Positions 45,073 to 63,147 of a stretch of DNA of 64,000 bases are shown in pieces; positions within the stretch are counted from its first letter, which is position 1; the number at the start of each line of letters is the position of its first letter. The notes under the pieces are model-generated. The model was not told the origin of the DNA, made no database searches, and was given only the letters and a program-made list of their open reading frames with translations. Source of the DNA: Actinoallomurus soli (GTDB lineage: Bacteria > Actinomycetota > Actinomycetes > Streptosporangiales > Streptosporangiaceae); assembly GCF_024055715.1 (NCBI RefSeq), contig NZ_JAMXMV010000016.1, positions 124,001-188,000 on the forward strand, in the 5' to 3' direction. A program made the position numbers and the translations under genes.

Positions 45073-45927
45073 TCAGGCGGTCTCGGCCTGGGTCTGGATG
45101 AGGTGGGACTGGCTGAGCCGGAGGGTGCCGTAAAAGATCAGCGCGAAACCCGCCACCTCGGCGATCACCCAGGGTCCCGATCGGACCCTCTCTCCGAACA
45201 TCGTGACCCCGTACAGGATGCTGGCCACCGGGTCGGAGATCGTCAGCGCCGGTTGGGCGGCGACCAGGGTGCCGCTCTGCAGGGCGTTCTGCAGGAGGAA
45301 CAGGCTGCCGAAGCCGGCCGCGATCATCGCGTACGGCTCCCAGGAGGTCAGCAGGACGAGCATGCCCTTGTCCACCAGGTTGGTGGTCGCCTTCATGAAG
45401 GTCGCGGTGAAGGCGAACCCGACCCCGGCGGTCACGCCCAGCAGCGCCGCCCGTGCCGCGCCGGAGGCCGACCTCGACAGCAGCGCGATCCCGACGATCG
45501 CCCCGACCGTGACGATCGCGGCGATCACCCAGATCAGCACGCTCGGGGCGCGCCGCCCGGGTGCGGGTGACGCCGCTCCGAGGAACGCGGCCAGCCCCGC
45601 CGTCATCGCGCCGACCGCCACCCAGACGCCCCGTTCGAGGTGAACGCCCGACAGCCGGGCGAGGAAGATCATGGTCAGCGGCAGCTCCGCGATGAGGAGC
45701 GGCTGCACCAGTGCCAGCCCGCCGTTCGACAGCGCCAGCGCCTGCAGGAGGAAGCCCGCGATGAGGGCGCCGATGCCTCCGAGCCACACCGGCCGGCGGA
45801 CCAGCGCCCAGAGCAGGGCCGGGCGGAAGGCGAACTCGTCGGGCTCCGAGCGTGCGGCGCGGCGCTGCAGCACCGAGGCCAGGGCATTGCTCGCCGCGGC
45901 GAGCAATGCGAACAGGACGGCGATCAC
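45073..45927 (-). CDS. DMT-superfamily transporter, second gene of a pair
   Basis: A 284-residue membrane protein with nine or ten helices in two EamA-like halves (LFALLAAASNALASVLQRRA, then GVGFAFTATFMKATTNLVDK). The N-terminal SNALASVLQRRAA and DPVASILYGVTMFGERV are typical of NIPA/EamA-like transporters in actinobacteria. GTG at 45927 follows GGAGGCGAG and overlaps the stop of the first transporter gene (GTGA). The pair could act as a heterodimer. Substrate unknown. Confidence 0.85.
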   Translation of the reverse strand: MIAVLFALLAAASNALASVLQRRAARSEPDEFAFRPALLWALVRRPVWLGGIGALIAGFLLQALALSNGGLALVQPLLIAELPLTMIFLARLSGVHLERGVWVAVGAMTAGLAAFLGAASPAPGRRAPSVLIWVIAAIVTVGAIVGIALLSRSASGAARAALLGVTAGVGFAFTATFMKATTNLVDKGMLVLLTSWEPYAMIAAGFGSLFLLQNALQSGTLVAAQPALTISDPVASILYGVTMFGERVRSGPWVIAEVAGFALIFYGTLRLSQSHLIQTQAETA

Positions 45928-46805
45928 GGCAGTCTCGCCTCCGCGCACCCGGCGACGTCGTCGTCCCGTTTCGCCATGTACGGCGACCGCCCGAGGATGA
46001 CGATCCCGGCGACCATCATGGCCAGGCCGACGATCTGTCCGGCCAGCGGTCCGGTGCTCAGCCGCAGCCGCTCGGTGAAGACCACGACTCCCAGCAGGAT
46101 TCCCGTGATCGGCTCCGCCGCGGTCGCCGCGGGCAGAGAGACGCGGAGCGGCGCGGCGTCGAAGGCCGACTGGGCCAGCAGGAGCCCGCAGATCGCGACG
46201 ATGACCAGCGCGTACGGCTGCCAGCTGGTGAAGATCGCGCCGAGCCCGTGCCCGATCCTGATCAGCACTCCCCGGGTGACGGCGTCCTGCAGGCCGAACA
46301 GGATGCCGGCCGCCGCGGCCAGCAGCATCGCCCGGATCTGCAGCGAGGAGCGCCGTCCGATCCCTACGAGGATCAGCACGATGAACACGATTCCGGCGGC
46401 CGCCAGCCAGCGACCGGACTCCGGGCCGGTGGGGTGCTCACCGTGCGGCCGGCCGAGCAACAGGAACAGCGCGATCCCTCCGGACGCCATGAGGCCGCCG
46501 AGCCACTCGTTCCACTTCAGGTTCTCCTTGCAGACGATGCGCCCGATGACGAGGGCGAACACGAGGTTGGTCGCCAGCAACGGCTCGACCTTGGACACGT
46601 CCGCTCCGGACAGTGCCACCGCCCCGAGGATCTGGCCGCCCACCATCGCGGCGAGCCCCGCGAGCCAGAGCGGTTTGTGGAGAAGATCCAGCAACAAGGA
46701 CGGGTGCAGCATCCGGCCGAGCGGCTCCCGGTACGCCGCGTGCTGCTGGGCCACGAAGCCCAGCCCCAGAAGGCCGGCGGCCGCCAGCCCGATGATGAAG
46801 ATCAT
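45924..46805 (-). CDS. DMT-superfamily transporter, first gene of a pair
   Basis: A 293-residue protein with about ten helices: FIIGLAAAGLLGLGFVAQQH, QILGAVALSGADVSKVEPLL, and EPITGILLGVVVFTERLRLS near the end mirror the partner gene. AGGGGGCTGA precedes the ATG. Translation is coupled to the next gene. Members of this superfamily move small metabolites or metals; nothing here fixes the substrate. Confidence 0.85.
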   Translation of the reverse strand: MIFIIGLAAAGLLGLGFVAQQHAAYREPLGRMLHPSLLLDLLHKPLWLAGLAAMVGGQILGAVALSGADVSKVEPLLATNLVFALVIGRIVCKENLKWNEWLGGLMASGGIALFLLLGRPHGEHPTGPESGRWLAAAGIVFIVLILVGIGRRSSLQIRAMLLAAAAGILFGLQDAVTRGVLIRIGHGLGAIFTSWQPYALVIVAICGLLLAQSAFDAAPLRVSLPAATAAEPITGILLGVVVFTERLRLSTGPLAGQIVGLAMMVAGIVILGRSPYMAKRDDDVAGCAEARLP

Positions 46806-55061: not shown

Positions 55062-56480
55062 TCATGGCGCGGTACCGAATCCGCGTGGTCCCGCGAGGAG
55101 CCGGTCCACGGCGGCGTCGAGGTCGGCGGGGGCGGTGACGCCCACCGCGCGGACGACGCCGTGCTCGTCGACGAGCACGTTCGTCGGGACCCCGCGGATG
55201 CCGAGGCGAGCCGCGTACGCGCCGGTCTCGTCCAGCAGGATCGTCCCCCGGATGTTCCACACCTCCGCGAAGTGGCGTGCCTCGCGGCCGGCGTCCCGGC
55301 TCTCCCACACGTTGATTGAAATGATCTCCAGCCCCGACCGGGCCGTACGGCGGCGCAGCTCCTCCAGGACCGGCGCCTCCGCGTTGCACGGGCCTCACCA
55401 GCTGGCGAAGAAGTTGATCACGTATTTCTTCTCCGCCCACTCCCGCGTGGTGCGGATCCGCCCGGTGTGCAGGTCCGGCAGCGCGAAACCGGGCAACGGC
55501 CGCCCGACGGCCGGGTGCCGCGCGGGCGGCTCGGGGCCGGGCAGCCACGGCCGGTCCACGACCGTGAGGCTGCCGCTGCCCGCGTTCGACACCAGCAGGC
55601 GGCCCGTCGCAGGATCGACGACGCAGTCCCCCGGCCCGTACCCGACCCGGATCCGGTGGCTCTCGGCGCCGGCGCGCGCGTCGAGCACGCTGACCGTGCC
55701 GGCTCCCCGGTTGCACACGTACACGTGGTGGCCGTCGCGCGAGACGGCCACGCCCACGGGAGCCCGTTCCACCGTGAACCGCCCGCCGATCCGCCCGTCG
55801 GCGAGCGAGAGCCACAGGACCGTGTTCTCCAGCGAGTTCGCGACGTACAGCCGGTCGGTCGCCGGGTCGGCGACGGTCTTGCACGGCCCACGCCCCACGG
55901 CGATGCGGTCCAGCGGGCGCAGCGTGGCCGCGTCGAAGACGGTGAGCGACGCGGCCATGAAGTTCGCGCAGTACCCGCGGTCGCGCCGCAGGTCGATCGC
56001 GATGCTGCCGGCGCCGAGCCCGGCGGGGATCGCCGCGATCGGTTCGAGGCGGTCGACGTCGACCACGGTGACCGTGGACCCGGCGGTGTCGCCGCTGAAG
56101 ATCCGCCGCAGCCGCGGATGGTACCCCAGCCCCGCCGGGTACGCTCCGACGGCGATCCGTGTGATCGGCTCTCCGGTCGCGGCGTCCAGGACGCTGATGG
56201 TGTCCGACCGGGCGTCGGCGGTGAACAACCGCCCGGTCGGAGCGTCGAAGATGAGCGGTATGGGCTCCCGGCCGACGCGCGCCCGCCAGAGGGGCGTCAT
56301 CCGGACGAGGTCGACGGCGGTCACGGCGTCGCTGCGCGAGCAGGCCACGAACGCCCGCCGCCGCCGCACGTCGACCGCGATCGCCTCGGGCCCCATGCCG
56401 ACGCGCACGTGCGCCAGGACGCGGTGAGCACGGTCGAACCCGCCGTACCCGTCGTCCGCCGTCGGCTCCACCGGGCCCAT
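55062..56480 (-). CDS. YVTN beta-propeller/thioredoxin (TlpA-like) fusion, candidate selenoprotein with in-frame UGA
   Basis: Read through one TGA, this encodes 472 residues. Residues 10-320 are YVTN/NHL-type propeller blades (VAFVACSRSDAVTAVDL-like units such as DTISVLDAATGEPITRIAVG and HHVYVCNRGAGTVSVLDARA). Residues 330-472 are a TlpA-like thioredoxin fold (FALPDLHTGRIRTTREW, KYVINFFASW, then GPCNAEAPVLEELRRR, GIRGVPTNVLVDEHGVVRAV with the cis-Pro). The TGA at 55395-55397 is codon 362 and replaces the first Cys of the W-C-G-P-C active site; the resolving Cys is kept. The frame is otherwise open on both sides. Selenocysteine insertion (U-G-P-C) is the best explanation; a nonsense mutation is the alternative. 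No export signal is obvious. Confidence 0.72.
55320..55394 (-). promoter_or_regulatory. Region that should hold a SECIS element if the UGA is recoded
   Basis: In the mRNA, 23 bases after the UGA is a GGUC, the core found in the loop of many bacterial SECIS hairpins. GGCGC and GCGCC arms flank it within a 26-base span that could form a hairpin with an internal loop. I could not fold it, so the structure is only suggestive. Confidence 0.3.
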
Positions 56481-56543: not shown

Positions 56544-58055
56544 TCATCGGCACCGTGTCGCCCGGTGCTCGGACTCGGCGGCCGTCGCGACGTCCCGGGG
56601 ATAGGCGGGCAGGGCCCGAAGGAGGATCACGGCGTTCGCCACGAGCGGCACGAGCATCACCAGGAAGGCGTACATCAGTCCCTGGGCGCGGTTACCGGCC
56701 CGGGCGCCGAACACGTCGGCCAGGAGACCGAACGTCACGGGCGCGGCGGCCTCGGCTCCCATCCGCAGGACGGTGCGGACGGCCTCGGCGCGCCCCCACA
56801 GGCGGAAGTGGATGACGTCCAGTCGCGCGGCGTCCAGCGGAGGGTTCGCCGCGGTCAGCGACGCGGCAGCGAGCAGGAAGGCCGGCAGCGCGACGACCAC
56901 CGCCGTGGTCAGGAGGCCGGGAAGGAACAGCCCGGCCGCCAGCAGGTAGGCCACCGCGGGGACGACCACGCGGGCGCCGAGGAGCCCGCGGCGGGTGAGC
57001 CGGTCGGCGACCCGTCCCCCGGTCAGCACCCCCGCCAGCGCGCCGGCGCCGATGAGGATCGCCAGGCCGCTGACCGCCGCGTGGCCGAGACCGTAGCGCC
57101 GCATGACGAAGTCGACGCCGAACGTCCGCAGGGCCGCGAAGAAGAAGTACCCGAGCGCGGACGCGACGATCAGCACGACGTTCGTGCGGATCCGCAGCAC
57201 GTAGCGCGCCGCCGCCCACAGCGACATCCCCGCCGGATCACGCCGCAGCACCAGGGCGGGGTCGGGGCGGACGCCGTGTTCCCGCACCGCGGACCGCGCC
57301 ACGTCGTCCTGGTCCGGCCCGCGCTCCGCGTCCTCCTCTCCGCTTCCCTGTGCCCCGCCCGCCCGCTCGTCCAGGCGCACATCACCGGGCCGTAGCCGGC
57401 TCTGGCCGCCGCGCGCCGGCTCGGGAAGCCGGCGCGCGATCACGTACACCAGTCCCAGCCCGAGCACGGCGAGGAACGCGAAGGCCGCCCGCCACGTCAG
57501 CAGGGGCGCCAGGTTCCCGCCGACGAGCAGGCCGAGACCGGCGCCGAGCAACTCGCCGCTGAGCACGAACCCGTAGATCCGGCCGCGCTCTCCGGGCGGG
57601 AAGTAGTCACCGATCAGCGAGGCGACCGGCGGCCCGGAGGTGGCGGTGACGGCGCCGAGCGCGAGCCGCGACAGCAGCAGCCACAGGAACGAACCGGCGA
57701 GCGCGCCGACCACCATGGCCGCGCCCCACAGGACGATGCTCACCGCCAGCAGCCGGGAGCGGTTCACCCGGTCGGTCAGCGCGCCGACGGGAACGGCGGC
57801 CAGCGCGCCGACCCCCGATGAGACCGAGGTGAGCGCGCCCAACTGGGTGTTCGTGATGCCCAGGCTCTGCTTCAGCTCCGGGGCAACCGCTCCGATCGTT
57901 CCCTTGTCGGCGGCGTCCAGCGCCATCACGCCGGCGAGGATCGCGATCACCTGGAAACGCGCCGGGCCTCCGACGAGCTCCAGCAGCCGCCGTCTCGCCC
58001 AGCCGACGGCCTGACGCAGTGGAACGGTGAACCGATGACCTGCCGAGGCCGGCAT
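56544..58055 (-). CDS. MFS transporter
   Basis: A 503-residue major facilitator with twelve helices. AILAGVMALDAADKGTIGAV, GALTDRVNRSRLLAVSIVLW (motif A-like loop) and PPVASLIGDYFPPGERGRIY mark the first half. A hydrophilic insert of about 70 residues (VRLDERAGGAQGSGEEDAER) lies between helices 6 and 7. It is on the opposite strand to the hyp genes, sharing their upstream gap, and next to the candidate selenoprotein. A nickel or other substrate role is not shown. Confidence 0.88.
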   Translation of the reverse strand: MPASAGHRFTVPLRQAVGWARRRLLELVGGPARFQVIAILAGVMALDAADKGTIGAVAPELKQSLGITNTQLGALTSVSSGVGALAAVPVGALTDRVNRSRLLAVSIVLWGAAMVVGALAGSFLWLLLSRLALGAVTATSGPPVASLIGDYFPPGERGRIYGFVLSGELLGAGLGLLVGGNLAPLLTWRAAFAFLAVLGLGLVYVIARRLPEPARGGQSRLRPGDVRLDERAGGAQGSGEEDAERGPDQDDVARSAVREHGVRPDPALVLRRDPAGMSLWAAARYVLRIRTNVVLIVASALGYFFFAALRTFGVDFVMRRYGLGHAAVSGLAILIGAGALAGVLTGGRVADRLTRRGLLGARVVVPAVAYLLAAGLFLPGLLTTAVVVALPAFLLAAASLTAANPPLDAARLDVIHFRLWGRAEAVRTVLRMGAEAAAPVTFGLLADVFGARAGNRAQGLMYAFLVMLVPLVANAVILLRALPAYPRDVATAAESEHRATRCR

Positions 58056-61420: not shown

Positions 61421-61512
61421 CCGAACGTGACGACCGTGGCTTATACCGGTAAGGCCCGCCTTTCCGGCGGGTGAGTTCCGGGTCGCGCTCCGGCGCAGGA
61501 GGGATAGCGATC

Positions 61513-63147
61513 ATGGCAGCTGAGCCGGTCACCGCCGGCACCGCCTTCGATCGGGCCCTGGCGGTCGCCGACGCGATCCTCTACGAGGGCTACCTGCTGT
61601 ACCCGTACCGCCGCTCCTCACCGAAGAACCAGGTCCGCTGGCAGTTCGGCGTGCTGACCCCGCGCGCCTGGACCGAGGCGCGCGGCGTGGACGACGAGGG
61701 TCTGGCCGGGTCCGCCGAAGGCTGGTGGCAGCGGACCGAGTGCCTGCTCGAAGCGGATGAGGAGTCCGTCGTCCGGTGCCGTGTCCGGTTCCTGCAGCTA
61801 CGGCGCAGGTCCGTCGAGGAACGCGCCGCGGAGGGCGCCCACCGCCCGGTCGACGGGCTCCGGCCCGGCACCCGGCCGGAGCCCGTCGACTTCGACGAGG
61901 CGATCCCCAGGGAGTTCGACCTGCGGTTCGTGGTCGGCGATGCGCTGTCCGGCGAACGGCGGTTCGCGTTCCGCGCGCCGGGCGGCACGGACGTCGAGAC
62001 GCTCCGGGACGAGGACGGACGCCCGGCTGCGCGGGTCGTGTTCCGGTCCTGGCCGGTGGAGGCGTCGGTGACGGTCTCGGCGGCCCGCTGCCCCTCCCGT
62101 TCCCGGCTGGTCCGGCTGCGCGTCCGCGTCGAGAACGCCGACCGTACGACCCCGCCGGGCGTCCCCCGCGCCGAGGCGCTGCGGCGATCGCTGATCGCCG
62201 TCCACACGATCTACGCGGGGTATGACGCGTCCTCCGCGGGGCGGGACGCGGCGTTCGTCTCCCTGATCGACCCGCCGGAGTGGGCCGGGGCGGAGGCCCG
62301 GGCGTGCGCGAACGTCCGTACCTTCCCCGTGCTCGCGGGGTCGCCCGGCGAGCGGGACCTGCTCCTGTCGTCGCCGATCCTCCTCTACGACCACCCGCGG
62401 ATCGCTCCGGAGAGCCCCGGCGACCTGAACGACGCCACCGAGATCGACGAGATCCTCTCGCTGCGGACGCTCACGCTGACGGACGCGGAGAAACGGGAGG
62501 CCCGCGCGACCGATCCCCGCGCCGCCGCCATCATCGACCGGGTCGACGCGATGCCGCCGGAGGTGCTGTCCCGCCTGCACGGCGCCATCCGCTCCCTCGC
62601 GCCGCTTCCCTCGGCGTCCGCCGCTGCAGCCGACGCCGGCGAGGCGCACACGGACACGGGCGGCGCCGCCGAGAACGCCGCCGCCGCCGAGGCCACCGCC
62701 GCTGAGAACGCCGCCGCCGAGGCCGCCGCCGCCGAGGCCACCGCCGCTGAGAACGCCGCCGCCGAAGCCGCCGCCGCCGAGGCCGCCGCCGCCGAGGCCG
62801 TCGCCGCTGAGGGCGCCCCGCCGCCGTCCCGGTGGAGCCCGCCGGACGAGGCCGGCCTGCCGCCCGGGGCCGACGCCGTCATCGTCGCCGGCCGCCGCGT
62901 CGCCAAGGGCTCGCGGGTGCGCCTCCTGCCACGTGCGCGGGGCGGTGACCCGCAGGACATGTTCCTGGCGGGCAGGACCGGCCGGGTGGAGGCCGTGCTC
63001 CTCGACGTCGACGGCTCCCATCACCTGGCCGTCACCCTGGAGGACGATCCCGGGGCCGGGCTCGACCGCTGGTACGGGCGGTTCCGGTACTTCTCCCCCA
63101 CCGAGGTCGAACCGCTCGACGAGACCGAGACCGGGGACCCCCGGTGA
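61513..63147 (+). CDS. 544-residue protein of unknown function in the hydrogenase cluster
   Basis: A soluble protein. Residues 1-300 are a well-ordered region (AVADAILYEGYLLYPYRRSS, NQVRWQFGVLTPRAW, EIDEILSLRTLTLTDAEKRE further on) that I recall from actinobacterial hydrogenase gene sets but cannot name. Residues 388-437 are an Ala/Glu repeat (AENAAAEAAAAEATA). Residues 470-540 look like a small SH3-like domain (GADAVIVAGRRVAKGSRVRL, RTGRVEAVLLDVDGSHHLAV, LDRWYGRFRYFSPTEVEPL). Translation is coupled to the downstream protease (GTGA). A role in large-subunit assembly is likely from context. Confidence 0.8.
   Translation: MAAEPVTAGTAFDRALAVADAILYEGYLLYPYRRSSPKNQVRWQFGVLTPRAWTEARGVDDEGLAGSAEGWWQRTECLLEADEESVVRCRVRFLQLRRRSVEERAAEGAHRPVDGLRPGTRPEPVDFDEAIPREFDLRFVVGDALSGERRFAFRAPGGTDVETLRDEDGRPAARVVFRSWPVEASVTVSAARCPSRSRLVRLRVRVENADRTTPPGVPRAEALRRSLIAVHTIYAGYDASSAGRDAAFVSLIDPPEWAGAEARACANVRTFPVLAGSPGERDLLLSSPILLYDHPRIAPESPGDLNDATEIDEILSLRTLTLTDAEKREARATDPRAAAIIDRVDAMPPEVLSRLHGAIRSLAPLPSASAAAADAGEAHTDTGGAAENAAAAEATAAENAAAEAAAAEATAAENAAAEAAAAEAAAAEAVAAEGAPPPSRWSPPDEAGLPPGADAVIVAGRRVAKGSRVRLLPRARGGDPQDMFLAGRTGRVEAVLLDVDGSHHLAVTLEDDPGAGLDRWYGRFRYFSPTEVEPLDETETGDPR
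62671..62811. repeat. Ala/Glu-coding tandem repeat
   Basis: A 45-bp unit encoding AENAAAEAAAAEATA repeats about three times with one shorter and one longer copy. It would form a long charged helix linking the two domains and is prone to slippage. Confidence 0.75.

Follow-up and report, generated by a model that had tools for sequence, protein, structure and literature searches.

A probable UGA-only selenoprotein family of actinomycetes, with a YVTN-type β-propeller fused to a ResA/TlpA-type thioredoxin domain

The 64,000-nucleotide stretch of Actinoallomurus soli DNA analyzed here (the window) carries on its minus strand a gene whose reading frame is interrupted by a single TGA, which raises the question of whether this codon reflects a damaged gene, separates two genes or specifies selenocysteine (Sec). 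The earlier note on this DNA had favored the last reading, and its description of the frame is borne out: from 56480 to 55062 the translation runs M...SW-TGA-GPCNAEAPVLEELRRR...TAP-TGA, the sole in-frame stop before the terminal TGA being that at 55397-55395, and a standard ORF listing indeed splits the gene into pieces at 55395-56480 (361 aa) and 55062-55310 (82 aa). The gene truly ends at the terminal TGA (55062..55064, minus strand), and TGA is thus not reassigned throughout. Read through the internal codon, the gene (55062..56480, minus strand) is complete and encodes 472 residues, with a propeller at about 17-313 followed by a C-terminal ResA/TlpA-type thioredoxin domain at about 325-450. 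The internal TGA (55395..55397, minus strand) is codon 362 and supplies the first residue of a W-U-G-P-C motif. We consider it very probable that this UGA is read as Sec and that the gene encodes one full-length selenoprotein. When the window and four further loci (L011-L014) were scanned for reading frames that a single TGA interrupts between coding-like flanks, two hits emerged besides this site (L011 5010 and L014 4973); their translations look like ordinary gene ends.

Profile searches recover a seven-bladed YVTN/YncE propeller in the N-terminal part (PF21783, 44.8 bits against a cut-off of 27.1; TIGR02276 YVTN repeat, 105.5 against 27.85) and a redoxin/thioredoxin domain around and after the TGA (PF08534, 60.8 bits against 26.6), with further Pfam matches to PF10282 in the propeller and to PF00578 and PF00085 in the redoxin/thioredoxin part; the redoxin domain is matched in all 17 orthologues described below. 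TIGR02276 is the only NCBIfam model over its cut-off, and no equivalog model is passed at E 1e-5. An AlphaFold model built from the 17 orthologues has a mean pLDDT of 86, and a VIA fold comparison of its residues 17-313 retrieves the propellers 3vgz (E. coli YncE; Z 37.7, rmsd 1.8 over 288 residues) and 1l0q (Z 38.3, rmsd 1.6 over 275), propeller matches taking up the whole list. The best PDB match of a profile of the thioredoxin part is ResA (4nmu, E 9.2e-15), while a single-sequence phmmer search of this part against the PDB gives no match at 1e-4. Inspection of the alignment of the 17 orthologues shows that both active-site positions and the GVP of the cis-Pro region are invariant, as are propeller cysteines 47, 200 and 256, with Cys 286 kept in 16 and Cys 171 in 15; from their YVxN and VGxxP repeat positions we infer that the propeller cysteines face the central funnel. 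Neither a signal peptide nor a transmembrane stretch is seen by eye at the N-terminus.

The evolutionary behavior of the codon was followed through searches whose queries avoided the Sec codon or read through it. A scan of genome contigs with peptides excluding this codon yielded 23 loci, 13 of which (L015-L027, from Actinoallomurus, Microtetraspora, Planosporangium and Streptomyces) cover nearly the whole protein, the remaining 10 being partial matches of 23-30% identity that were left out of the orthologue count. In all 13 the matched region is interrupted by a single in-frame TGA, always at this codon. Whole-genome searches reading through stops added three orthologues, again with TGA at this position: G086, from another family of the class and 55% identical, and G940 and G1023, from the Streptomyces genus draw. 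Altogether the codon is TGA in 17/17 and Cys in 0/17 (the window gene and 16 orthologues of 55-89% identity). Cys in close homologues, which the earlier note regarded as evidence against Sec, thus stands at the codon in none of the 16 orthologues; the alternation of Cys and UGA that it expected there is not seen, the sampled family being UGA-only. Cys aligns with the UGA codon only when the wider ResA/redoxin superfamily is considered. Past the hairpin described below, the window copy was compared with 11 others, and the dN/dS of 0.17-0.45 indicates purifying selection; no second frame break was found in the orthologues.

The gene is rare, being found in 2/394 genomes of a class draw, 4/297 of an order draw and 7/392 of a Streptomyces draw; a fifth order-draw hit (G440) matches the propeller alone, at 30%, and was not counted. 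A protein encoded on a plasmid of Streptomyces sp. NBC_00046 was considered as a Cys form and set aside, as it is a YVTN propeller with no visible thioredoxin domain, and a search of plasmids with the thioredoxin part gave no match. In viral contigs, six loci match the thioredoxin domain alone, in a search whose pattern contained Cys and was blind to TGA forms.

A Sec reading presupposes the decoding apparatus, and the four genes that the earlier note proposed to look for, selA, selB, selC and selD, are all present in the genome. The matches to tRNA-Sec (75.9 bits), selD (387.5) and selB (278.9) exceed their cut-offs, and these genes, together with selA, which directly precedes selB, lie within about 24 kb on one contig. 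The same genome has two FdhA-like genes with one in-frame TGA each (G000:C11:1085501, here L090, and G000:C23:18303, here L091), in both of which H-S-A-T and the string CCCCGGUCUGGGG come after the TGA; L091 is located some 4 kb away from selD, and L090 is on another contig. Among the gene-bearing genomes, tRNA-Sec is found in 16/17 (the own genome, 13 of 14 tested together, and G940 and G1023), and selA likewise in 16/17. The selB model TIGR00475 is over its cut-off in 6 of 18 genome/locus entries, with two pairs among the six representing the same assembly, and selB-like matches adjoining selA and selC in other genomes fall below that cut-off; since this makes it a poor selB marker here, tRNA-Sec and selA were used as markers. 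In Microtetraspora malaysiensis (G653, L018) there are two tRNA-Sec and two selA genes with selB-like neighbors, which suggests that its Sec cluster is duplicated.

In the Streptomyces draw, tRNA-Sec is present in 7/7 gene-bearing genomes as against 61/385 others (Fisher p 3.6e-6, a value that ignores kinship), five of the seven having been known already from the contig scan. In the order draw, tRNA-Sec occurs in 182/297 genomes, so that Sec decoding looks widespread in actinomycetes of the window's order, and at such a frequency its presence in 4/4 gene-bearing genomes is uninformative (p 0.14). The tRNA-Sec filters in these two draws were stricter and recovered 2 of 5 control genomes positive in an earlier search; because they missed the other three, the background counts may be too low. 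The exception among the gene-bearing genomes is Streptomyces mexicanus Marseille-Q0842 (L023/G658), which keeps the UGA gene while tRNA-Sec, selA and a clear selB were not detected in it. Decay of an orphaned selenoprotein was considered for this copy and rejected: its terminal N/S of 36/27, as compared with 84/94 pooled for three neighbors, is not a significant difference (Fisher p 0.19).

The stretch following the TGA contains a candidate bacterial SECIS hairpin (55347..55382, minus strand; columns 16-51, column 1 being the U of UGA), in which GCGG/CCGU and GGCGC/GCGCC arms are separated by an A.G mismatch and capped by an apical part with GGUC. The position given for this GGUC in the earlier note, some 23 bases past the UGA between GGCGC and GCGCC, is confirmed, its first base being the 24th after the UGA (55371-55368, that is, 55368..55371 on the minus strand). 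Both FdhA-like genes likewise have the string CCGGUC after their UGA, 5 bases nearer to it than in the propeller-thioredoxin gene; for one of these genes the string is predicted to form an apical loop. In E. coli fdhF, SelB needs an unpaired apical G/U; part of the apical GGUC of the window gene is predicted to be paired. A helix within the apical loop, joining C25-C26 with G33-G34, was dropped by eye because columns 33-34 vary. A search of the window with Rfam gives nothing over the gathering scores.

That a SECIS element might be present had been hinted in the earlier note, and the hint finds support in codon-choice statistics and none in free energy alone (53 bases, z -0.77). In such GC-rich DNA the free energy after the UGA is uninformative, so codon-aware tests were used, on 14 of the 17 genes (L018, L025 and L027 were left out as near-duplicates). 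At 10 conserved codons from +6 to +22, a region set after the profile was seen, the excess sharing of synonymous codons is 0.43, as against 0.045 at 132 others; this value is reached by 0/200,000 random draws, and the region is also the top contiguous stretch. Within it, the conserved Arg is CGT in 12/14 genes, while CGT accounts for 55/624 Arg codons overall. When the real codons of the 14 genes are compared with synonymous shuffles, windows of 12-14 codons starting at +4/+5 give a mean z of -1.9 to -2.1, the lowest fold z among 181 windows outside the hairpin being -1.23. The signal is lost when 13 codons are taken from +6 (z -0.43) or the stretch is widened to 25 codons (z -0.40), a dependence to be expected of a compact hairpin, though the stretch of codons had been chosen to fit the hairpin. 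Pairing in the hairpin is preserved in 96.7% of cells, with one double compensatory change (L021); with so little variation, covariation is weak, and 40/500 shuffles reach the observed values. As judged from the sequences, these features fit a SECIS-type hairpin that closely follows the UGA and carries an apical G.

Three other accounts of the interrupted frame can be weighed against these observations. TGC or TGT might have been mutated or misread to TGA, making the gene a pseudogene or a sequencing error, and a Cys codon is indeed one base away from TGA, nothing more specific pointing in this direction. This account is refuted for the family by the recurrence of the same TGA in 17/17 copies from several genera and separate assemblies, and is further opposed by the absence of a second frame break in the orthologues and the purifying selection on the sequence after the TGA; we regard its probability as next to nil. 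The TGA might instead end a propeller gene, with a small protein starting at a GTG/ATG about 27-29 codons later, as the split in the ORF listing and the presence of start codons would allow. However, a product of the small ORF would be missing the two active-site residues together with the β-α unit that opens the thioredoxin fold, conservation is strong in the stretch separating the TGA from its start codon, and the hairpin would be left without a role, so that two separate genes appear exceedingly improbable. A third account is programmed partial readthrough or non-Sec decoding of the UGA (e.g., as Trp or Cys), with a truncated propeller as the main product. Such a propeller could fold alone, and S. 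mexicanus keeps the gene without detectable Sec genes; against this stand the co-occurrence with tRNA-Sec, the placement of the TGA exactly at the redox residue and the fact that the gene itself ends in TGA, and we hold this mode of decoding to be very improbable. The TGA in 17/17 copies, the Sec machinery and the constrained codons of the hairpin together argue for a selenoprotein family rather than a pseudogene, in keeping with the Sec interpretation originally proposed.

Accepting the selenoprotein, its genomic setting could point to a dedicated role in [NiFe]-hydrogenase maturation, since hypC, hypD, hypE, a maturation protease and hydrogenase subunit genes adjoin it in the window and in the congener L015. 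The earlier remark on this adjacency therefore holds for the window and does not generalize, being true of 2/17 loci: the window's HypC, HypD, HypE, protease and large subunit have no match near the gene in the other 15, whose flanks were searched over up to 19 kb in 11 and about 6 kb or less in L017, L021, L022 and L025. In L020 (G655), a hydrogenase small-subunit gene 82% identical to that of the window lies about 7 kb from the selenoprotein gene, and nothing in the 19 kb searched there matches the large subunit of the window. With these absences (flanks of 6-19 kb) set against the two adjoining loci and the small subunit in L020, a hydrogenase-dedicated function seems unlikely. Two transporter genes, both on the minus strand, also lie nearby: an MFS transporter gene directly upstream (56544..58055), with a homologue near the gene in 5/17 loci by raw count and a fragment in L021, and a DMT family transporter (DMT_1, NF038012) about 8.6 kb downstream (45924..46805), with a homologue within 10 kb in 11/17 by raw count, and within about 4 kb in 9 of the 11. 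Separately, a 558-aa ORF at 61471-63147 (plus strand), between hypE and the hydrogenase protease gene, has a C-terminal half with an Ala/Glu-rich repeat and no Pfam or NCBIfam match at 1e-5; its homologue occupies the same place in L015.

For the full-length selenoprotein, established bacterial Sec biology, together with the machinery genes observed, suggests a decoding route in which SelA and SelD would make selenocysteinyl-tRNA, and SelB with tRNA-Sec(UCA) would decode UGA 362 as Sec under the direction of the hairpin in the downstream coding sequence. By analogy with thioredoxins, Sec-362 would be the attacking residue, in place of the Cys of ResA/TlpA-type domains, with Cys-365 as the resolving residue. 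Given the observed parts of the fold, the protein most likely acts as a thiol/selenol-disulfide reductase, with a cellular thiol system returning its Sec-Cys pair to the reduced state, and a substrate or partner would most likely be held by the Cys-bearing propeller. The lack of an N-terminal signal or membrane stretch by eye and the propeller cysteines favor a cytoplasmic Sec-thioredoxin reductase, and we lean slightly towards this reductase role, with a partner docked on the propeller. More tentatively, this UGA-only actinomycete family might be one in which the Cys propeller passes a sulfur, selenium or metal-bound substrate on to the Sec-thioredoxin of the same chain, in association with the DMT and MFS transporters; as the searches turned up no Cys form, the chemistry may require Sec, though we rate this extended scheme as doubtful.

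Comparison with known proteins places both halves in familiar groups. With the ResA/TlpA/DsbE oxidoreductases (PF08534/PF00578; 4nmu, 1st9) the protein shares the thioredoxin fold, a redoxin-type domain, the W-C-G-P-C position and GVP, from which it differs in having Sec for the first Cys, a propeller in front and no export signal by eye. With the YncE/YVTN propellers (3vgz, 1l0q) it shares the fold at 21-24% identity, whereas the conserved propeller cysteines and the C-terminal thioredoxin domain set it apart; its score against the YncE equivalog NF052280 is 48.3 bits, below the cut-off of 400. The NCBIfam model NF041054 (WAxxUGC_long) has a comparable ResA-like domain and, per its name, Sec at the first redox position; however, its motif is UGC as against UGPC here, and the window protein reaches 48.2 bits against a cut-off of 300, over the thioredoxin part only.

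Among published selenoproteins, the thioredoxin-fold UxxC families in Table 1 of PMC13188914 (2026), i.e., 'Redoxin family protein' (PF08534), 'Thiol-disulfide isomerase-like protein' (cd02966) and thioredoxin, have in common with the window protein the fold and Sec as the first residue of UxxC. That paper counts 119 prokaryotic selenoprotein families of which none is named in Table 1 as a propeller fusion; the 'Redoxin family protein' HEU0032618.1 listed there could be a relative. The main text of the deep-Sep paper (PMC12013277) makes no mention of propeller, TlpA, thioredoxin, Streptomyces or actinobacteria, and the word propeller is likewise absent from the available text of PMC5029168, which covers Sec use in bacteria. 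A literature search for a bacterial selenoprotein with a TlpA or thioredoxin domain and a β-propeller found no paper in the collection searched. We hence regard the family as a new domain architecture and a new orthologous family, built on a known kind of thioredoxin-fold UxxC selenoprotein.

The propeller and Sec-thioredoxin combination thereby adds an architecture not found among the 119 families of PMC13188914 as its Table 1 describes them, and does so in bacteria where formate dehydrogenase is the Sec protein found in the literature. In Streptomyces incarnatus, the Sec formate dehydrogenase is accompanied by selABCD and a SECIS (PMC4498112); the Sec machinery and host group are the same as for the window protein, but the protein is unrelated, its counterparts in the window's own genome being the two FdhA-like TGA genes. 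The gene also illustrates a gene-calling trap, in that plain ORF calling splits it at the UGA and would let it pass as a truncated propeller. The lack of Cys forms in the sample, taken with the S. mexicanus gene without detectable machinery, provides a natural test of the need for Sec. Finally, the hairpin offers a second candidate SECIS for actinomycete SelB, one in which the distance between UGA and GGUC is five bases greater than that of the FdhA-like genes.
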